From Chloroflexaceae bacterium (GTDB lineage: Bacteria; Chloroflexota; Chloroflexia; Chloroflexales; Chloroflexaceae), in NCBI GenBank assembly GCA_025057155.1, contig JANWYD010000003.1:124001-188000 (forward strand): DNA of 64,000 nt. Reading direction: 5' to 3'. The notes below the pieces were generated by a model, which was given only the letters and a program-made list of their open reading frames with translations, had not been told where the DNA came from and ran no database searches. Each line of letters begins with the position of its first letter. Positions within the stretch are counted from its first letter, which is position 1. Made by a program: the position numbers and the translations under genes. Shown piece by piece: positions 15,741 through 60,075 of this stretch.

Positions 15741-15925
15741 CCCAACGGGCCTCAGCCTGCCGGATAGCATGACACCTGCGTTACTCCCTGGAGGGCGCGG
15801 AGAGGCCGCGTATCTCTGCAACCACCTCATATTTTCCCTCGCAGCGGGCGCGCCCCCTGGCACAGCCGCGACAGGTCCGGACAGATCGCTCAGGGCTACG
15901 CCCTCCCAGACCCGCCCCTGAAGGC

Positions 15926-16099
15926 TTCTCAGGTAGAGGGTTTTTCGAGCGAGAAGGTGTTTTCGGCATTCCAATGCGCTTACGGTCCTCACCCCCCCGC
16001 CCCCCTCTCCCTGAGCGGGAGAGGGGGGCGTTGGGCGTCCTAATGCCCCGGATGGCCCATGCGACGCGAGCAAGCGCTGGAAAACCCTACATCTGAGAA
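15926..16099 (+). mobile_element. MITE-like element, family 1 copy 1, with 11-bp target duplication
   Basis: A non-coding 174-bp element beginning TTCTCAGGTAGAGGGTTTTT; the right end reads TTCTCAGATGTAGGGTTTT on the other strand, so the ends are inverted repeats of about 20 bp. The centre is a palindrome of CCCCTCTCCC and GGGAGAGGGG. The 11 bp CCCCTGAAGGC occurs immediately before (15915-15925) and immediately after (16100-16110), as expected of a target-site duplication. Copies: 18757-18917 (inverted) and 59801-59976 (same orientation). No transposase is encoded. It sits in the 509-bp gap between two lipoprotein genes; the rest of that gap shows nothing else. Confidence 0.85.
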
Positions 16100-16249
16100 C
16101 CCCTGAAGGCCCTTGCCGGCAGGAGTGGTTCGCAAATCGCCCCTGCCTCTGCCCTCCAGATCATCCAGCACGAGGAAGAAGGAACATTTCGGCGCTCCGG
16201 AGCGTTGATCAGTCGAACGGCTGCAAGCACACACCAAAGGAGCCACGCG

Positions 16250-18756: not shown

Positions 18757-18917
18757 TTCTCAAGTTTAGGGTTTTCCGGCCCATCCTCGCGTCGCATGCG
18801 GAGCATTGGAACGCCCCCCACCCCCCTCTCCCGCGCGCGGGAGAGGGGGGATGAGGACCGTAAGCACATTGGAACGCCGAAAATCCCTTCTCGCTCGAAA
18901 AATCCTGAACCTGAGAA
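18757..18917 (-). mobile_element. MITE-like element, family 1 copy 2 (inverted orientation)
   Basis: Read on the minus strand it begins TTCTCAGGTTCAGGATTTTT and ends with the complement of TTCTCAAGTTTAGGGTTTTC, so it has the same terminal inverted repeats as the copies at 15926 and 59801. It also has the same central CCCTCTCCCGCGCGCGGGAGAGGG palindrome region. Flanks share only AGGGGG, so a target duplication is uncertain here. It fills much of the 511-bp gap between the terminator at 18667 and the glycosyltransferase gene. Confidence 0.8.
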
Positions 18918-59713: not shown

Positions 59714-59800
59714 TGCTTTTCCTGGAGGGCTGCGCCCTCGCACACCCTCCTATGGGGCTGTGCACGAAGTTCTTCGCTAACTTCACCCTCTCCCCGACCC

Positions 59801-59976
59801 CTCTCAGGTATAGGGTTGGTCGAGCGAGCAGGGGTTTTCGGCATTCCAATGCGCTTACGATCCTCACCCCCCCAGCCCCCCTCTCCCGCGTGCGGGAGAG
59901 GGGGGAGTTGGGCGTCCCAACGCCCCGGATGGCGCAAGCGACACGAGGATGCGCCGGAAAACCCTGCGCCTGAGAA
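59801..59976 (+). mobile_element. MITE-like element, family 1 copy 3, with near-perfect 11-bp target duplication
   Basis: A 176-bp copy of the element at 15926, same orientation, with ends CTCTCAGGTATAGGGTT and (other strand) TTCTCAGGCGCAGGGTTTT and the central CCCTCTCCCGCG palindrome. The flanks are CTCCCCGACCC (59790-59800) and CTCCCCGATCC (59977-59987), 10 of 11 identical. The right flank runs directly into the family 2 element. It lies in the 413-bp gap between the PrsW-like gene and the M4 protease gene. Confidence 0.85.
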
Positions 59977-59984
59977 CTCCCCGA

Positions 59985-60075
59985 TCCTCCTCCGCCGGGG
60001 GAGGGCGCCCAACTCCTCCCCCCAACAGGGGGAGGCCGGGGGGCGGAAATGCCGGGAAACCTTGTTCACAGACTA
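59985..60075 (-). mobile_element. GC-rich palindromic dispersed element, family 2 copy c (truncated)
   Basis: On the minus strand it starts TAGTCTGTGAAC at 60075, continues through GCATTTCCGCCCCCC and the CCTCCCCC..GGGGGGAGG palindrome, and stops where the family 1 element at 59801-59976 adjoins. The far terminal repeat is missing, so this copy is probably interrupted or deleted. Confidence 0.6.

Follow-up and report, generated by a model that had tools for sequence, protein, structure and literature searches.

Three short elements with inverted ends

The window, i.e. the whole analyzed stretch of 64 kb (G000:C3:124001-188000), belongs to a genome assembly of 5.13 Mb in 189 contigs, whose DnaN shares 96-97% identity with those of two assemblies titled Chloroflexales and Chloroflexaceae. 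Three short elements of 161-176 bp, described in an initial annotation of this DNA, were recovered at the same positions by direct reading and by a scan for terminal inverted repeats (TIRs). Copy 1 (positions 15926-16099, forward strand, 174 bp) is bounded by a left TIR at 15926-15944 and a right TIR at 16081-16099. It is bracketed by two identical 11-bp target duplications on the forward strand, CCCCTGAAGGC at 15915-15925 and CCCCTGAAGGC at 16100-16110 (11/11 matching bases). Copy 2 (18757-18917, 161 bp) is inverted, lying on the reverse strand, and has no recognizable target duplication; comparison of its flanks revealed no direct repeat, with 4/11 matching bases at 11 bp. Copy 3 (59801-59976, forward strand, 176 bp), whose left and right TIRs contain three mismatches and one mismatch, respectively, is flanked on the forward strand by CTCCCCGACCC (59790-59800) and CTCCCCGATCC (59977-59987), which agree at 10/11 positions and have the consensus CTCCCCGAYCC. 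Direct reading thus bore out the 11-bp repeats that had been noticed at copies 1 and 3.

Within the window, six TIR matches (up to three mismatches) were identified, and these are the six ends of copies 1-3; 0.03 matches would be expected by chance, and six were reached in 0/100 shuffles. The ends are inverted, as initially described, but their proposed length of 20 bp required correction: the TIR comprises ~19 bp, and the consensus ends differ beyond position 19 (TCGAGCGAG versus CCGGCGCAT). A hairpin is located in the center of every copy. That of copy 1 (15998-16030) is G+C-rich and has a perfect 14-bp stem and a 5-nt loop, while those of copies 2 (18820-18849) and 3 (59875-59904) were distinguished by pattern matching. 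The suggestion of a central palindrome agrees with both the stem and the predicted folding of copy 1 (z = -3.99; equal stability in 0/200 shuffles). With respect to coding capacity, the ORF listing covered only frames of at least 100 aa, which are longer than the element could hold.

Copy number, target duplications and orthologous sites

A search of the remaining genome revealed 265 TIR matches (129 + 136, up to three mismatches; reversed control, 0), corresponding to ~130 copies, so the "three copies" of the initial annotation hold inside the window but not genome-wide. When two copies were used as queries, the best 40 of 175 and the best 40 of 165 candidates were all full-length (query included), and copy 1 shares 87-92% identity with the 39 other full-length copies scored. 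From loci L001-L077, 60 distinct copies with two recognizable ends were oriented and aligned; copies with one TIR (L057, L063, L071, L075 and L076) and repeated sequences were left out. Because its members were recruited through sequence similarity or an error-free TIR, this set is biased to well-preserved copies. Its consensus has a length of 174 bp (individual copies, 161-176 bp) and the TIR YTCTCAGGTGYAGGGTTTT, and the mean pairwise identity is 0.88 (range 0.73-0.95). A search of viral contigs with a single TIR yielded one exact match, in one contig.

To characterize the flanks of the 60 copies, the k bases preceding each element were compared with the k bases following it (k = 5-16). Mean identity is 0.715 at 11 bp and 0.33-0.44 at the other lengths. 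At exactly 11 bp, 9-11 of the bases match in 36/60 copies (9/11 in 10 copies, 10/11 in 10 and 11/11 in 16), compared with 0.7% of randomly paired or shuffled flanks; matching direct repeats are thus present at many further members of the family. The other 24 copies, copy 2 among them, score 8/11 or lower, and we assume that decay or recombination is behind the missing duplication.

The insertion sites are G+C-rich and display a weak symmetric preference, with G at position 1 in 23/37 and C at position 11 in 24/37. The targeting of extended palindromes by the element was considered and is not claimed: in a test that used 36 of the 60 sites, the score of the center was reached by 52/2000 shuffles, and several displaced centers scored higher. 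For 6/60 copies, the joined flanks match uninterrupted sequence elsewhere across the junction (33 rows, DNA examined). Since these matches are G+C-rich intergenic repeats, the element lies within other repeats at those sites.

Orthologous sites were compared in species of the same genus (congeners G024-G027), not in strains; the segment that separates copies 1 and 2 could be located in all four. Copy 1 is absent from the one readable site (0/1; G027), where 190 bp upstream contain no element. The spacer of G027 that corresponds to copy 1 contains a short tandem repeat with the 21-bp unit TGCGTGCTGCAGGAGAGCCGT (G027:C26; L231 positions 1-110). Copy 2 is absent from its orthologous place in G025, G026 and G027 (0/3), which has no TIR and comprises 9-148 bp between the aligned flanks versus ~310-450 bp in the window; G024 was not counted, as the alignment is lost ahead of the place. 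Copy 3 is absent from all four congeners (0/4). Conserved copies at orthologous sites, which would speak against mobility, were thus found in none of the readable congeners. No base-exact empty site was recovered in these genomes, because the spacers have changed too much. At individual sites there may have been loss rather than gain, but the duplications make insertion the more economical explanation of the absent elements.

These data bear on whether the elements are mobile at all. A dispersed repeat that does not move, such as a REP- or ERIC-like palindrome acting in regulation or at the mRNA level, would have a stable central hairpin like that found here, and in relatives the hairpin core occurs without TIRs on both sides in 17/19 of the loci L102-L120 (L102 and L105-L120). 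The direct repeats would then have arisen by chance, whereas 11-bp duplications exceed chance by far and the congeners have sites without the element, which makes this explanation barely credible. A secondary role of the hairpin may nevertheless exist. The initial claim of transposition, as opposed to ordinary dispersal, is accordingly upheld by the duplications and the congener sites, while copy 2 contributes no duplication evidence to it.

It is well supported that the window elements represent a genuine new family of miniature inverted-repeat transposable elements (MITEs) of a familiar, essentially ordinary kind. Like bacterial MITEs in general, they are short, TIR-bounded and present in many copies with target duplications (PMC10969869). 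The main text of that review contains none of the terms IS4, IS231, Chloroflex and Roseiflexus, and none of the open-licence papers listed in literature searches describes this family, as judged by titles and abstract openings.

Insertion sequences with the same ends and the search for a donor

Insertion sequences (ISs) of 1.36-1.38 kb, whose TIRs match the MITE consensus at 17-18 of 18 positions, were identified in two relatives, G017 and G067. The element of G067 (contig C83; 1362 bp; TIRs 18/18 and 17/18) is flanked by a perfect 11-bp duplication, CATCCCCCCTC (11/11); it is decayed and has a broken reading frame. The element of G017 (contig C117; 1375 bp; TIRs 18/18 at both ends) contains a frame of 375-390 aa and a 6/11 duplication; judging from a frame break near the start and a G at the second catalytic D, this TIR-identical element is probably dead. 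Open frames were found in G003:C450 (411 aa) and G014:C42 (397 aa), with TIRs of 14-15 of 18 at both ends and duplications of 2/11 and 6/11, respectively. The IS of G003:C450 (L198, 1059-2429) has copies of its neighbouring sequence on both sides in inverted rather than direct orientation, which resembles the outcome of recombination between two copies. A further element, in G065:C203, has internal stops, TIRs of 13-14 of 18 and a 9/11 duplication. Among the ten ISs bounded by MITE-type TIRs, two reach at least 9/11 (L215, 11/11; L209, 9/11) and the others score 1-8; the duplication length of the partner ISs rests on few cases, to which the TTGAAA-type elements of G064 and G016 can be added.

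The transposases with open frames in G040, G003 and G014 (397-411 aa) all contain the arrangement D-63-D-104-E. Spacings of 63 and 103-104 were found in L197, L198, L199 and L155, in agreement with the pattern D(60-110)D(100-150)E, and deviations of catalytic residues occur in L202 (G at the second D) and L203 (A for E). The motif Y-(2)-R-(3)-E-(6)-K is exact in L197, L198 and L202 and varied in L199 of G014 (R for K), L155 (T for K) and L203 (A for E). In profile searches, PF01609 scored 31-42 bits (cut-off 23) in the proteins of G040, G003 and G014 and was above the cut-off in 4/5 transposases and below it in L155 (15.9 bits).

The IS4 family is characterized by a DDE transposase with the Y-(2)-R-(3)-E-(6)-K motif and by duplications listed as 7-13 bp in Table 1 of PMC2266710; IS10, for example, has CT ends like the elements described here, but 9-bp duplications (PMC2266710). 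The partner ISs resemble this family in their DDE and YREK residues, single ORF, length of ~1.36-1.38 kb and, in the few cases with a recognizable duplication, its size of 11 bp, close to one turn of the helix (PMC2266710). They differ in that their ends, YTCTCAGGTGTAGGGTTTT, combined with 11-bp duplications, fit no single row for the seven subgroups in that table (PMC2266710). Another difference is that NF033591 scores 74-99 bits in the transposases of G040, G003 and G014 and 51-99 bits overall, below its curated cut-off of 152. MIC231 elements, the mobile insertion cassettes associated with the IS231 subgroup (IS4 family), are non-autonomous, are mobilized in trans and make 10-12 bp duplications. 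The Chloroflexales MITE is likewise non-autonomous and would also depend on an IS4-family transposase acting in trans; unlike MIC231, it has other ends, is small and hairpin-cored and reaches ~130 copies.

In the genome that carries the window (G000), a profile built from six transposases gave one match, an N-terminal fragment (C7:66641-67174, model positions 3-186 of 411). The idea that this fragment marks one end of an intact element was discarded, because it breaks off where an adjoining MITE copy (L072) ends and the duplication of that copy scores 1/11. Three queries of this assembly detected no complete transposase of the partner family; a donor was thus not seen alongside this MITE in one genome, and ends shared with an autonomous element are found in relatives only. 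A DDE_Tnp_1 transposase pseudogene in G000:C20 was also dismissed as a partner, since it is not bounded by such TIRs. This locus (L095, G000:C20:656-1348) appears ISAs1-like by eye, contains a stop codon and is situated near a contig start. Among the congeners, the profile search detected a C-terminal fragment of the partner transposase in G025 and no match in G024, G026 and G027. The autonomous IS4-group element suggested as a possibility by the initial annotation therefore has counterparts with the same TIR in relatives, one of which (in G067) is accompanied by an 11-bp duplication, while no complete one is present in the assembly of the host itself. An origin of the MITE by internal deletion of a partner IS is not supported by the ISs examined, as the two are dissimilar, by eye, beyond the terminal ~20 bp and the core is a hairpin repeat that is also present by itself in related genomes.

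We consider it very likely that the window elements are non-autonomous MITE copies moved in trans by an IS4-type DDE transposase; in this species the family appears to be orphaned. The transposase would bind the ~19-bp ends (YTCTCAGGTGYAGGGTTTT) and insert them at G+C-rich intergenic sites through a staggered cut of 11 bp. We infer that it was the IS4-type class that moved this MITE, presumably by the cut-and-paste mechanism of IS4. Mobilization by a transposase of a different family, with the TIR shared by coincidence, would be in keeping with the lack of a complete partner found in the host genome, with the sole DDE_Tnp_1 match there being a pseudogene without these ends, and with duplications of at least 9/11 in only 2/10 of the ISs. 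Such a coincidence is nevertheless quite improbable in view of the near-identical TIRs in two relatives, one with a perfect duplication, and of the related TIRs at both ends of the open IS4-type elements of G003 and G014.

The absence of a current donor is a separate part of this interpretation. The family looks orphaned because its own genome yields only a transposase fragment, and it looks old in view of the mean identity of 88% between copies. A donor is probably lacking now. Against the orphan part alone stands the view that the same MITE is currently active, its transposase being encoded on a plasmid or in genomic DNA missing from the assembly. This assembly consists of 189 contigs, and fragmented assemblies often lack multi-copy IS elements. 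We regard such activity as rather unlikely, since a maximum pairwise identity of 95% in the sample reveals no recent burst, three queries yielded just a transposase fragment and copy 1 had no match among 72,556 plasmid records. The orphaned, IS4-mobilized MITE remains the preferred reading.

Variable bodies and a second insertion sequence in the hairpin

A search of 82 genomes of the order, with at most 10 candidates per genome scored, revealed matches to the element in 53. Among the matches listed, most span the hairpin core alone (query ~62-103), near full-length ones (84-98% identity) were found in G000, G025 and G027, full-length ones (71-73%) in G066, G067 and G068, which represent a Roseiflexus-type genus, and partial ones in G064 and G065. 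The congeners G024, G025, G026 and G027 contain 125, 96, 13 and 27 TIR matches (up to one mismatch), respectively. Many of the TIR matches listed for G024 are located within ~130 bases of contig starts. In the stretches of G024 that were read (L248-L267), the same TIR encloses a different, shorter MITE body of 86-149 bp. Two-ended elements of G024 and other relatives have duplications of 10-11/11 in 9/11 loci, allowing a one-base shift of the end. The conserved unit is the TIR, and the body varies.

The hairpin itself serves as a target in G064, a Roseiflexus-type genome consisting of a single contig of 5,801,598 bp. An IS of 1383 bp with the ends TTGAAAGGGGGGGGATT, encoding a 418-aa transposase, is a TTGAAAGGGGGGG-type element whose target is the loop of the MITE hairpin. 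Relatives of this IS led to the elements with MITE-type TIRs described above. All eight full-length copies in G064 (L159, L165, L168, L171, L173, L175, L177 and L179) are inserted at the hairpin apex; a ninth copy, at a contig end of G065 (L160), was left out of this count. The copies are 1380-1383 bp long, except for L175 (1444 bp), and MITE arms flank the IS on both sides in 7/8, one arm being shortened in L173. Their 11-bp repeats are of the CCC(N5)GGG type and match at 11/11 positions in four copies and 10/11 in four; a TTGAAA-type element, the type to which these copies belong, has an 11/11 duplication in G016 (L220). Each copy occupies a different MITE copy. Given their dissimilar outer flanks and the presence of both MITE orientations, they look like separate insertions rather than one composite that was copied.

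On this basis we propose, with the chances evenly balanced, that in Chloroflexales a portable IS4-type TIR shell with a single 11-bp insertion rule caps several MITE families with different bodies, that these families acquired the free-standing G+C hairpin, and that its loop in turn came to serve a second IS4-type element as a dedicated landing site. Targeting of REP palindromes has been described for some ISs, ISRm22 among them (PMC1525189), and ISRm22 has been placed in the IS4Sa subgroup (PMC2266710). The eight copies of G064 are similar to them in that all use the same point within a dispersed palindrome (PMC1525189); they differ in being targeted to the hairpin loop of a MITE, the transposase of which would itself be of the same (IS4) type.

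The results name a likely transposase class for an abundant Chloroflexales repeat, with ~130 copies in one 5-Mb genome. The MITE family accounts for some of the intergenic turnover and probably also explains contig breaks, such as those near the TIR matches of G024. The arrangement in relatives, in which IS, MITE and IS are layered, is the more interesting part. If the proposal is true, the Chloroflexales harbour a layered system composed of an IS, a MITE and a MITE-targeting IS, and thus a testable case in which a MITE offers a sequence-specific insertion site to an IS from its own family.
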